The translations under genes and the position numbers were made by a program. Of a stretch of 64,000 nucleotides of DNA, positions 82-60,848 are shown in pieces (the first letter of the stretch is position 1; every line of letters begins with the position of its first letter). The stretch comes from a virus, in the IMG/VR virus record IMGVR_UViG_3300032224_000723, positions 1 through 64,000 of that record; one strand, written 5' to 3'. The notes beneath the pieces are model-generated. The model made no database searches, was not told the origin of the DNA, and saw only the letters and a list, made by a program, of their open reading frames with translations.

Positions 82-405
82 TTGCCAACATATAATTTTG
101 TGAATAGTGAGACAGGTGAAGAGTTTGAATCGTTTATGAAAATTTCAGAGCGTGAAGAATATCTAAAAACAAATCCACATATTCAACCAGTGTTAACAGC
201 GCCAGCAATTGTTTCTGGTGTTTCTACTTCAACACAAAATCGGGTACCTGATGGTTTCAAAGATGTGTTATCTAAGGTTGCAGAGGCGCATCCAGCAAGT
301 CCTCATGGCCACCGCTATGGTAAGAAATCTATTAAACAAGCAAGGACTCAAGAGATTGTTAAAAAGCATGTTGATAAAATCACAAAGAGAGTTGGCGCTA
401 CATGA
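82..405 (+). CDS. Conserved T4-like phage small protein, function unknown
   Basis: A 107-residue protein starting at a TTG placed about 5 nt after a GGAG Shine-Dalgarno (71-74). The N-terminus MPTYNFVNSETGEEFE resembles the start of FmdB-type small regulatory proteins and of a conserved protein of marine T4-like phages; the middle is rich in Ser/Ala/Pro and the C-terminus is basic. The cysteines of an FmdB zinc ribbon are absent. It overlaps the downstream nuclease gene by 4 nt (ATGA), so the two are probably translated together. The coding call is firm; the function is unknown. Confidence 0.8.
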   Translation: MPTYNFVNSETGEEFESFMKISEREEYLKTNPHIQPVLTAPAIVSGVSTSTQNRVPDGFKDVLSKVAEAHPASPHGHRYGKKSIKQARTQEIVKKHVDKITKRVGAT

Positions 406-1079
406 TTTTTAACCATGTGAAAATTCCAGAATTAGATTTTGATTTAAAAGCAGTAACTACTGAATCTGGAAGAAAATACACAACACCGAATGGTGAGAAG
501 TATTCTTCTATCACCACTGTTCTATCTGCTTACAATAAAAAAGCAATCATGGAATGGCGTAAGAGAGTAGGCGAAGAGCAGGCGAATAAGATATCAAGCC
601 AAGCATCTCGCCGTGGCACTTCAGTGCATGATGTTTGTGAAAAGTTTTTGCTCAATGAATTGAGTGATATGAAAATACAAATGATGATGCCGAATGTGAA
701 GGAGATGTTTCTTCAACTGAAACCTGAATTGATGAAGAACATTGGCAACATCTATTGTTTAGAGCAAGCATTGTATTCTCATAAATTGAAAGTTGCTGGT
801 CGTGTAGATTGTATTGCTGAATGGAAAGGAAAACTTTCTGTCATCGATTTTAAAACATCAAGCAGGTTGAAAGACAAAGACCATATCAAAAATTATTTTA
901 TGCAATGTAGTGCTTATGCAATTATGTTCGAAGAGATTACTGGTTTACCAATCGAACAAATCGTGGTAGCTATTGCAGTGAATGATGAAACATTGCCGCA
1001 GATATTTGAAGAGACAAAACATAAATACATTGATGACCTTCTTTACTATGTGAAGAAACATCAAGATATTGCTGTATGA
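402..1079 (+). CDS. PD-(D/E)XK family exonuclease (RecB/Cas4-like fold)
   Basis: A 225-residue nuclease-like protein. An N-terminal segment with GEKYSSITTVLS and a helical part with RRGTSVHDVCEKFL precede the core near residues 132-152, where GRVDCIAEW is followed by a strand and VIDFKTS. This supplies the Asp and the D-x-K of the PD-(D/E)XK active site. The layout (T-S-V-H, then G-R-V-D, then D-F-K-T) fits the single-domain exonucleases of T4-like marine phages, probably acting in recombination or DNA degradation. It ends just before the acceptor piece of the tmRNA gene, whose transcript may continue from it. Confidence 0.8.
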   Translation: MIFNHVKIPELDFDLKAVTTESGRKYTTPNGEKYSSITTVLSAYNKKAIMEWRKRVGEEQANKISSQASRRGTSVHDVCEKFLLNELSDMKIQMMMPNVKEMFLQLKPELMKNIGNIYCLEQALYSHKLKVAGRVDCIAEWKGKLSVIDFKTSSRLKDKDHIKNYFMQCSAYAIMFEEITGLPIEQIVVAIAVNDETLPQIFEETKHKYIDDLLYYVKKHQDIAV

Positions 1080-3354: not shown

Positions 3355-3360
3355 TATAAT
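3355..3360 (+). promoter_or_regulatory. -10 element (TATAAT) upstream of pqqA
   Basis: A perfect TATAAT about 33 bases before the pqqA ATG. No good -35 box is visible at 17-bp spacing (T-rich instead), so this promoter is weaker or differently regulated than the other sigma70-type promoters of the window. Confidence 0.5.
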
Positions 3361-3393
3361 AGGCATACATACTTTACACACAAGGAGAAAATT

Positions 3394-3465
3394 ATGTGGA
3401 CAACACCAACAGCCGCTGATATGCGTTTCGGATTTGAAATTACTATGTACATTGCAAATCGTTGA
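3394..3465 (+). CDS. pqqA: PqqA, peptide precursor of pyrroloquinoline quinone
   Basis: A 23-codon gene with AAGGAG at 3383-3388. The peptide starts MWTTPTAADMRFGFE and ends ITMYIANR. This is the PqqA signature: the Glu-x-x-x-Tyr pair (Glu15, Tyr19) cross-linked by the radical SAM enzyme PqqE to make PQQ, inside the conserved G-F-E-(V/I)-T-M-Y-x-A-N-R block, at the normal family length. The gene stands alone with its own -10 element and terminator. No pqqB, C, D or E is in the window, so the phage would feed precursor into the host PQQ pathway, for example for PQQ-dependent methanol dehydrogenase. The identity is strong despite the short length. Confidence 0.88.
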   Translation: MWTTPTAADMRFGFEITMYIANR

Positions 3466-3486
3466 TCAGTTAGCACCAAAAAAGTG

Positions 3487-3511
3487 AAGCCTCGTAAGGG
3501 GCTTTATTTTT
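3487..3511 (+). terminator. Rho-independent terminator after pqqA
   Basis: Stem AAGCCTC (3487-3493) / GGGGCTT (3498-3504) with one T-G pair and a GTAA loop, followed by TATTTTT. It closes a one-gene transcription unit. Confidence 0.8.
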
Positions 3512-3566
3512 GGATAATTTATTAAATGATTGTAAATATGTATAAATACCAATATAGGAAAAATAT

Positions 3567-28763: not shown

Positions 28764-29345
28764 ATGAAAAACAAAATTATACTCACTGACGCAGACGGCG
28801 TATTACTTGACTGGGAATGGGCTTTTGCAGTTTGGATGGAGGAACATGGTTTCTCTAAAAAAGAAGGATATCAATTTGAATATGATATTGGCATCCGATA
28901 TGGCATTGGGCACGAGCAAGGTAAAAAGCTAATCAAAATGTTTAACGAATCGGCGGCAATTGGATTTTTGCCTCCTTTACGTGATGCTATGTATTATGTT
29001 AAACGATTACATGAAGAACATGGATATGTATTTCACTGTATCACTAGTTTGAGTACAGATGTTAATGCTAAAAAACTACGAGAAATGAACCTACAAAAGT
29101 TGTTTGGTAAAACAGCATTTGATCGTGTAGTGTGTTTGTCTACAGGTGCAGACAAAAATTATGCACTTGAAGAATATGCCAATTCAGGACTTTGGTGGAT
29201 TGAAGACAAACCAGAAAATGCAGACGTTGGTCATGACATGGGCTTGAAAAGCATATTAGTAGAACACGGACACAACATGCATCACAAATGCCCTTATCCT
29301 GTAGTAAAGAACTGGAAGGAAATTTATAGCATTGTTACCAGTTAA
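28764..29345 (+). CDS. HAD-superfamily phosphatase
   Basis: 193 residues. Motif I is LTDADGVLLDW (nucleophile Asp9, Asp11), then CITSLSTD supplies the motif II Ser/Thr, and WWIEDKPENADVGHDMGL corresponds to motif IV acidic residues. A small cap is inserted after motif I. The order suits a nucleotidase or 5'(3')-deoxyribonucleotidase type, but the substrate is unknown. It has its own consensus promoter, no Shine-Dalgarno, and its stop overlaps that of the convergent radical SAM gene by 4 nt. Confidence 0.78.
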   Translation: MKNKIILTDADGVLLDWEWAFAVWMEEHGFSKKEGYQFEYDIGIRYGIGHEQGKKLIKMFNESAAIGFLPPLRDAMYYVKRLHEEHGYVFHCITSLSTDVNAKKLREMNLQKLFGKTAFDRVVCLSTGADKNYALEEYANSGLWWIEDKPENADVGHDMGLKSILVEHGHNMHHKCPYPVVKNWKEIYSIVTS

Positions 29346-30367
29346 CTACCGCAGTATTCATCACATTTAAACAGCCTACCTTCTGCGTAGGCTTTTTTAT
29401 CCCAGCTAGACTCTACAGCATTGAACCAAGCAATGGATTGCTCTATACCAACTTCTAATGCGTTATTGTTTTTAACTAGATCTTTTAACATCATGTTATC
29501 TTGTTGCCATGGGTGTTGATATTCTAACTTAGGATACATTCCCAACCAACAACAGGGATACACTTCTCCTGTAGCAGTGATATAAATTTCAGCACGTTTT
29601 TTGGCATGACAGTTTACTTTATTTTTTACAGGAATTGTTTTGTAATAATTTAATCTGGTAGTGGGGTTAGTTCCAGGAGCAACCCATTCGTTCCATATTT
29701 CAATTCTTTTTGGATATTTAACTTCTTTAAACATGGGATCGTCGCCTAACTGATAAACCAAGTCCCCATCTCTATTATACACAGGACCTTGATCTCTGCC
29801 TTCATCCAATAATTCAAATCTTTTAAATCCAAGCTCTTTACTTAACTTTTGGCACTCGTCAATTTGATGTTGATTATGAGACAAAGGAATCATACGCCAA
29901 ATTGCATGGCCACCAGCAGCAATAAATTTCTTTGCATTGCTGATAACTAAATTCCAATCAGTGTTGCGTCTATATAAACTGTGCGTATCTTCAAGACCAT
30001 CTAAGTCAAACCCAACAAATAAATTAGGTACCTTTGCTAATCTTTCCCATATATTAGGTTTAGCGGAGGCATTGGTTGAAATAGTAATTTCAAGACGGGG
30101 ATTAGATTCAGCAAAATATTCTACTATGTCTACGCCTTCTCTGGCAGTGACAAAGTCTCCAAAGTTTCCATTAATTAATATTCTGTTTAGTTGTTGTAGA
30201 AATGGTACAGTAAAAATTTGTTTTGCTTCTACTAAGGACATATCGTGTACAGGATAACCTAAGTCAGAATCAAATCCCGCTGTGTTTCTTGGACACAAAG
30301 GGCAACTGGCATTACATCGTGTGCTAATTTCAAAATGCACACTGCGAATCATTGAGTAGTCGATCAT
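29342..30367 (-). CDS. Radical SAM enzyme with SPASM-like C-terminus
   Basis: 341 residues. C18-x3-C22-x2-C25 in STRCNASCPLCPRN binds the radical SAM cluster. Supporting features are ISTNAS (strand with Asn), FDLDGLEDTHSLYRR and a Cys-containing C-terminal region (VNCHAKKRAEIYI, GEVYPCCWLGMYP, FKCDEYCG) like SPASM/twitch auxiliary cluster domains used by peptide-modifying enzymes. The target is not known. A link with phage PqqA is possible but the genes are 26 kb apart. Radical SAM genes of this kind recur in T4-like phages. Confidence 0.85.
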   Translation of the reverse strand: MIDYSMIRSVHFEISTRCNASCPLCPRNTAGFDSDLGYPVHDMSLVEAKQIFTVPFLQQLNRILINGNFGDFVTAREGVDIVEYFAESNPRLEITISTNASAKPNIWERLAKVPNLFVGFDLDGLEDTHSLYRRNTDWNLVISNAKKFIAAGGHAIWRMIPLSHNQHQIDECQKLSKELGFKRFELLDEGRDQGPVYNRDGDLVYQLGDDPMFKEVKYPKRIEIWNEWVAPGTNPTTRLNYYKTIPVKNKVNCHAKKRAEIYITATGEVYPCCWLGMYPKLEYQHPWQQDNMMLKDLVKNNNALEVGIEQSIAWFNAVESSWDKKAYAEGRLFKCDEYCGS

Positions 30368-59729: not shown

Positions 59730-60848
59730 ATGAATTCAACTTATTGCAGTGCCGTGGACACGGGACTGTTTGTTAGTACTCAAGGTCAGGTAGGGTTATG
59801 TTGCAGTGGAGCACAGCCTTTGGGTAACATCAAACAACAACCCATTAAAGAAATATTTGCTAAATCAAAGTTTCCAGAAATACGTCTAGCACTTAAAAAC
59901 AATCAACCTCATGAATATTGTTCAGGCTGTGATAGAACTGAGCAACAAGCCGCAGGATCTAGTCAGCGCAGTGCGTTTAATGATCAATTCCCCAATCCCA
60001 CAAAACGTGAAATTAAACTAATTGATGTACGTTGGAGCAACGTCTGTAATCTAAGTTGCAGATATTGTAACGTATACGACAGCAGTGAGTGGAGTAGAAT
60101 TATGAACATTCCTATTCCGTCAGTGAATAAAGACTACACCGATTCCTTATTTGAGGAAATTGCAGAAAATAGAGATTCTATTGAGTGTATGTATTTGTTA
60201 GGCGGTGAGCCACTGATGCAAAAGCACAACGAAAGATTGTTAGACATCATTAATCCTAGTGTTAAGATAGATGTGCTAACCAATCTCAGTGTTAAATTAG
60301 ATAAAAATAAAATCTATGAAAAACTAAAAAAGTTTCCAATGGTACTTTGGAATTTAAGTTTTGACAACATCGGTGATAGGTTTGAGTATGTTAGACATGG
60401 TGCTAAGTGGGATATATTCACAGACAATATAAAACAACTATGCGATGACTTTGGCGCACATAGAATAACATTTCACCCAGTGTATACCATTTGGAATGCA
60501 TTGAACTTAGAAGAATATTACGAGTTTGCCAGCAAACAAAACTTCAGAGTTAATTGGCAAATGGCCATGCCCAAATCAGGAATAAGTGATATAGAAACAG
60601 AAAGTTTTATTACATTTGGACACAAGTCCAGTATTATGACCGCAGCCATAAAAGAAATAGAATCTGTAAATGTTGCTGACCCTATAGTTGATAACATCAA
60701 ACAAAGTTTAATCAACAACATTGAAATTCCCAATAAGGATCAAGACTTCTTAACATGGACTGCACAGTCTGAAAGTATTATACCACCCAACAAACCATTT
60801 AGCGAGCTATGGCCTGAGTTAAATAAGTTATTAACAGGCACACAATGA
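59730..60848 (+). CDS. Twitch/SPASM-type radical SAM enzyme
   Basis: 372 residues. The N-terminal 80 residues carry Cys-rich stretches (VGLCCSGAQPLGNI, EYCSGCDRTEQQAA). The radical SAM motif CNLSCRYC is near 106-113, followed by LLGGEPLMQKHN (G-G-E-P) and DVLTNLSV. The N-terminal auxiliary-cluster arrangement is that of twitch-domain enzymes that modify peptides or proteins. No precursor peptide is found next to it. It overlaps the desaturase gene by 4 nt. Confidence 0.85.
   Translation: MNSTYCSAVDTGLFVSTQGQVGLCCSGAQPLGNIKQQPIKEIFAKSKFPEIRLALKNNQPHEYCSGCDRTEQQAAGSSQRSAFNDQFPNPTKREIKLIDVRWSNVCNLSCRYCNVYDSSEWSRIMNIPIPSVNKDYTDSLFEEIAENRDSIECMYLLGGEPLMQKHNERLLDIINPSVKIDVLTNLSVKLDKNKIYEKLKKFPMVLWNLSFDNIGDRFEYVRHGAKWDIFTDNIKQLCDDFGAHRITFHPVYTIWNALNLEEYYEFASKQNFRVNWQMAMPKSGISDIETESFITFGHKSSIMTAAIKEIESVNVADPIVDNIKQSLINNIEIPNKDQDFLTWTAQSESIIPPNKPFSELWPELNKLLTGTQ

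Follow-up and report, generated by a model that had tools for sequence, protein, structure and literature searches.

Phages encode the PQQ precursor peptide PqqA as a free-standing mini-gene, apart from the genes for the PqqBCDE enzymes. The window, that is, the whole stretch of 64,000 nucleotides analysed here (positions 1 to 64,000 of the 156,993-bp virus record IMGVR_UViG_3300032224_000723, from a virus of aquatic bacteria), carries such a gene (Table 1). The initial annotation had proposed a profile search for short PqqA ORFs in phage genomes; run on IMG/VR, this search confirmed pqqA in at least 591 contigs. We consider it likely that a working phage-borne pqqA is a dosage gene, which would supply a consumable precursor to the PqqBCDE enzymes of the host.

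The peptide encoded in the window, MWTTPTAADMRFGFEITMYIANR, exceeded two curated cut-offs in hmmscan, with 37.9 bits against Pfam PF08042 (cut-off 21.1) and 38.9 bits against the NCBIfam equivalog TIGR02107 (cut-off 20), and its gene was the sole PF08042 match above cut-off within the entire record (E 2.7e-9). The 23-residue ORF lies in the PqqA range of about 22-29 residues and holds the residue pair targeted by PqqE (E15-I-T-M-Y19). It shares with the family its length, the Glu-x-x-x-Tyr core and the W/P/R/GFE.TMY residues, and the 23-mer had no match among solved structures. On sequence evidence the ORF is confirmed as a bona fide PqqA, as the initial annotation had claimed; the failure of the PqqA profile that it had named as a refutation did not occur, since the profile matched over the cut-offs.

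Whereas members of this family are substrates of PqqE and PqqD, the phage record lacks the partner genes pqqBCDE. No PqqB-E were found by tblastn in the whole record, a search that a divergent PqqD could escape, and there was no pqqABCDE operon, as pqqB, pqqC, pqqD and pqqE were not found alongside pqqA. The same holds more widely, with pqqB-E present at none of about 200 viral pqqA loci versus 54 of 80 bacterial ones. No PQQ-dependent dehydrogenase domain was found in the record, and a methanol dehydrogenase was looked for there with the same outcome.

Table 1 Features of the pqqA region and radical-SAM genes (window positions unless given as record)
Feature	Position	Strand	Evidence and remarks
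PD-(D/E)XK exonuclease (phrog_298)	402..1079	+	phrog_298 E 8e-71; anchor of the exonuclease-tmRNA-pqqA block
Permuted (two-piece) betaproteobacterial-type tmRNA, tag ANDSQFALAA	1019..1375	+	RF01850, RF04321, ARAGORN
-10 element TATAAT, inside GTATAATAG	3355..3360	+	Sequence; putative pqqA promoter, -35 weak (ATGTTT)
Shine-Dalgarno AAGGAG	3382..3387	+	Direct reading; 6 nt 5' of the pqqA ATG
pqqA	3394..3465	+	23 codons + stop, product MWTTPTAADMRFGFEITMYIANR; Glu15/Tyr19 are counterparts of the residues that PqqE cross-links
Rho-independent-type terminator hairpin with U tail	3476..3513	+	Folding versus shuffles
Radical-SAM proteins	window 29342-30367, 59730-60848; record 89542-90750, 110353-120496 (L334, L335)		

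The description of pqqA as a self-contained unit also held, with a TATAAT and an AAGGAG of its own and a terminator (dG -19.1 kcal/mol, z -4.7) whose stability was equalled by none of 200 shuffles. A generic sigma-70 scan did not call the promoter because its -35 element is weak. The motif GTATAATA occurs in nine copies on the + strand of the record, and all nine lie about 12-42 nt 5' of a gene, with pqqA, which was omitted from the ORF list used for this count, added as one of the nine genes. DNA ligase and metallophosphoesterase are among the others, and none of nine copies on the minus strand lay near a gene start. Since GTATAATA regularly precedes genes in this record, pqqA looks like a member of an early-type promoter set of the phage.

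The gene order in the window is exonuclease, tmRNA, a repeat-flanked insertion, hydrolase and pqqA. Orthologues of the exonuclease occur in Kyanoviridae-type phages, Melnitz among them. The tmRNA scored 141.8 bits with RF01850 (1019-1351) and 142.1 bits with RF04321, and ARAGORN placed it at 1039-1375; it overlaps the 3' end of the exonuclease gene, and its tags vary at the same place in related phages. The insertion (1355-2739) consists of an ORF without family (1483-2589) with a 49-nt repeat (90%) on both sides, and it left the start of the hydrolase gene duplicated at 1366. This is a genuine virus context: the neighbours of pqqA include a phage exonuclease and a DNA ligase, and other pqqA genes lie in complete isolate genomes. 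Hence, phage pqqA is a gene of a genuine virus genome and not host contamination.

The same surroundings recur in other viruses. A homologue of the phrog_298 exonuclease precedes tmRNA and pqqA in seven contigs (L063, L085, L213, L214, L248, L251, L256), and pqqA lies 58-79 nt downstream of the tmRNA in five (L093, L213, L248, L251, L256). In other contigs, Melnitz included, a tRNA gene is found 11-65 nt from pqqA. Seven contigs, L551 among them, encode an exonuclease that shares 98-99% identity with the one in the window; of these, only L551 had pqqA in the downstream stretch checked (4 kb or less). Compared with its close relatives L547, L549 and L552, it displays a clean insertion of ~227 nt between the end of the tmRNA and the ribosome site of the next gene. 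The inserted DNA comprises a 24-codon pqqA together with a ribosome site, a TATAAT and a hairpin that bears a T run. The gene 3' of this insertion also differs from its counterparts in those three contigs. Such comparisons show the gain of phage pqqA as a mini-cassette, a mobile mini-gene that often adjoins tmRNA and tRNA genes.

This hot spot, together with the accessory distribution of the gene (3 of 30 relatives), would also be expected if pqqA were hitch-hiking host DNA, an accidental passenger from tRNA/tmRNA neighbourhoods under weak selection. We regard this as improbable, given the signs of selection and of a working layout. Among 169 distinct viral pqqA sequences, pS was 0.61 and pN 0.16 (ratio 0.26), and Trp2, Pro5, Arg11, Glu15 and Tyr19 were invariant. 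The GFE.TMY core belonged to the probe, and its invariance is therefore partly a selection of matches; the flanking positions lay outside the first probe. These estimates show purifying selection on viral pqqA. An SD-like element was present within the last 20 nt upstream of 201/202 viral pqqA, a terminator-like hairpin within 60 nt of 45 of the 170 distinct ones (3.4 in shuffles), and a perfect upstream TATAAT in 52 of the 170 (16.8 in shuffles). Because terminators and TATAAT exceed chance, the free-standing layout is common, which is a statement on the set and not a demonstration for each viral pqqA. Furthermore, several unrelated phage lineages that share a host type carry the gene, which speaks against an accidental passenger.

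Among isolates and other INPHARED records, tblastn matched P19250A, four Melnitz isolates, Venkman, MEP301, MEP401, MEP402 and a Manatee Spring contig. Every one of the nine Methylophilales/Methylophilaceae phage records that this database yielded carried pqqA, these being the records found by match and not a census, as methylophages free of a match could not be listed. The eight phage peptides scored, MWTTPTAADMRFGFEITMYIANR included, all exceeded the cut-offs of PF08042 and TIGR02107. One further match, "Acinetobacter phage MD-2021a" (L008, CAKLQF020000010.1), was discarded because the contig, which bears ppk as well as pqqB-E, is evidently bacterial. In IMG/VR, all 120 matches of a degenerate 7-residue-core probe were short ORFs with a stop at the PqqA-typical place. 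Alphaproteobacterial-type PqqA accounted for three of five pattern matches there. In three viral contigs (L377, L378, L379) there is a PqqA of a second type, CGMEIN, with the sequence MAWNTPKVAEVACGMEINMYAKAALK or a single-residue variant of it, and no match to pqqB-E was found within the contig stretches searched. A stand-alone pqqA is also present in the jumbo-size contig L266 (IMGVR_UViG_3300023174_000036, 356 kb).

Carriage among relatives is patchy. We found pqqA in 3/30 T4-like relatives from the lineage of the window phage and in 7/22 P19250A-type contigs, many of them fragments in both sets, and in 5/9 of the P19250A-type contigs that are near-complete (at least 32.9 kb). Universal presence among relatives is ruled out by these counts, and as only some relatives have pqqA, the gene can be helpful at most and not essential.

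The initial annotation had also expected gene callers to overlook so short a gene, which is borne out by the five isolate records in which pqqA has no annotation (P19250A, Venkman, MEP301, MEP401, MEP402) and by two more in which an antisense call covers it. The latter are QZI94433.1 of Melnitz-1 (L003 2461-2556) and UOF77531.1 of the Manatee Spring phage ctXG6705 (L007 2067-2195), both labelled "hypothetical protein" and both probably spurious. PHROGs contain no PqqA family. Since the gene is missing from PHROGs, mostly uncalled and covered by antisense calls in at least two records, surveys of viral metabolic genes probably give too low a count for it.

The host of the window phage is probably a betaproteobacterium. 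The peptide MWTTPTAADMRFGFEITMYIANR agrees with Thauera PqqA at 20/22 positions; the number of shared positions is 17-19 for most other members of the Burkholderiales and Rhodocyclales and 14-16 for Methylophilaceae. In the comparison with bacterial pqqA that had been proposed, the Methylophilaceae were thus more distant than Thauera and most other Burkholderiales/Rhodocyclales. Among 30 genomes searched, the full permuted beta tmRNA occurred in Thauera and Advenella, and the Methylophilaceae examined have a one-piece tmRNA. The best bacterial match to the phage tmRNA, in Advenella, was only partial (77% over about 134 nt). With only 23 residues, the peptide is a poor host marker, and the tmRNA may stem from an older host. 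The earlier hint of a Methylophilales host is not indicated by either the peptide identities or the permuted beta tmRNA; with a PqqA type nearer to Rhodocyclales/Burkholderiales than to Methylophilaceae, the term methylotroph is unproven for this phage.

The copy number of pqqA in bacteria provided insights into why a peptide alone might be of use. The gene was found in 149 of 150 Methylophilaceae genomes, with a median of 4 copies and up to 12; the tally covers 149 of the 150 counts, and some of the genomes are drafts. Methyloversatilis has 3-5 copies and Methylophaga 3-4, and the median was 1 in 23 genomes of lineages not known for methylotrophy. At the inspected Methylophilaceae loci, pqqA lay apart from pqqB-E. 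A PQQ-producing methylotroph has been described that carries five pqqA genes, of which three lie outside operons, and the demand for PQQ is large because methanol dehydrogenase uses it as cofactor (PMC9851590). Methylovorus sp. MP688 likewise has multiple pqqA, as cited in PMC6520949. The copies outside pqq operons in Methylophilaceae, Methylophaga and Methyloversatilis resemble that of the phage in being short, free-standing and apart from pqqBCDE, but they are chromosomal and several per genome, whereas the phage copy lies near tmRNA and replication genes behind a phage promoter.

We infer expression of the phage gene, processing of its product by host enzymes, a rise in PQQ and a benefit to the phage. 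The phage would make extra PqqA peptide early, from its own promoter. This would be bound by host PqqD and cross-linked at Glu15-Tyr19 by PqqE, the known roles of PqqE and PqqD being to link Glu to Tyr and to act as chaperone (PMC9851590), and a host protease, PqqB and PqqC would complete the cofactor. Infected cells would thereby maintain or increase the amount of cofactor available to their PQQ-dependent dehydrogenases, which in methylotroph hosts include methanol dehydrogenase, and the energy supply during phage growth might be sustained or raised. The peptide alone would help if PQQ is limited by precursor and not by enzyme. Because PqqA is a substrate spent one per PQQ, a peptide gene of 70 nt makes sense in phages without the enzymes. 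Both the copy-number pattern of hosts and the enzyme-free phages fit a precursor that limits PQQ, in keeping with the original suggestion of precursor supply. Against supply by dosage stand the lack of a PQQ-dependent dehydrogenase domain in the record and the sporadic occurrence of pqqA in relatives (3/30; 5/9). In addition, disruption of the operon pqqA of M. extorquens lowers PQQ, though not to zero, as cited in PMC6520949.

A substrate gene without enzymes would look alike if its product were a decoy or competitive inhibitor that occupies PqqD/PqqE or serves as a dead-end substrate, lowering host PQQ or shutting down methanol oxidation. This is very unlikely in our judgement, as the cross-linked and family residues are under purifying selection and many phage PqqA peptides equal host PqqA letter for letter; such peptides are unable to be dead ends, and their identity favours a substrate over a decoy.

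The record encodes at least nine radical-SAM proteins, of which eight score over the NF033640 (twitch family) cut-off. Most of their genes are clustered at 110-120 kb, close to those of a likely carbamoyltransferase and of a DegT-like protein, both named by eye. As PqqE candidates these proteins were rejected, since none of the ten scanned matched a PqqE model, the matches being mainly to NF033640. That they turn the peptide into a new RiPP other than PQQ, as their number and family might suggest, is hardly credible, given the lack of a PqqE match, the distance of about 26 kb between pqqA and the nearest of them, the presence of pqqA in P19250A without an annotated radical-SAM protein, and the score of the peptide in the PqqA equivalog model.

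Returning to precursor supply by dosage, we lean slightly towards a broader proposal, in which pqqA would be a general, convergently acquired consumable-peptide tool of phages of PQQ-dependent bacteria. It would take the form of a mobile cassette of ~150-230 nt, made up of promoter, pqqA and terminator, that inserts next to tmRNA/tRNA genes, acts purely by dosage, mirrors multi-copy host pqqA and is invisible to standard phage annotation. Phage metabolic genes such as psbA, phoH and pmoC boost a limiting step. Phage pqqA resembles them as a host-derived gene that would strengthen a bottleneck in infection, but its product is a stoichiometrically consumed raw material, neither an enzyme nor a structural protein.

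The initial annotation knew of no well-described phage pqqA, but the gene had already been reported, briefly, in the T4-like Lake Baikal virus population VP_266 (Coutinho et al. 2020, PMC7678222). Both that population and the window phage are T4-like freshwater phages with PqqA, for which the same role is proposed. VP_266 has an inferred Methylophilaceae host and a methanol dehydrogenase, whereas the window record is without the latter. That report covered one case, whereas many viruses are described here, and P19250A, stated in it to lack these genes, does carry pqqA. A 2026 reservoir study listed viral pqqA among phosphorus genes (PMC13188868). The texts of the Venkman, MEP301, MEP401/402 and Melnitz papers that were searched make no mention of phage pqqA. 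In the open-licence literature searched, we found no description of how widespread phage pqqA is, of its stand-alone form without the enzymes, of the hot spot beside tmRNA/tRNA genes or of the link with host copy number.

These findings point to pqqA as an annotation blind spot in phage records, and its role can be tested in phage-host pairs already isolated (Venkman, Melnitz, MEP301, MEP401/402, P19250A). The published medium for OM43 has 1 nM PQQ in it (PMC9004378), an amount that might hide an effect of phage pqqA. In lakes and oceans, the oxidation of methanol and related compounds by PQQ enzymes accounts for a major one-carbon flux. If phages of such bacteria routinely carry the PQQ precursor, PQQ supply would be a bottleneck of infection. 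The boosting of the PQQ cofactor looks like a common viral habit.
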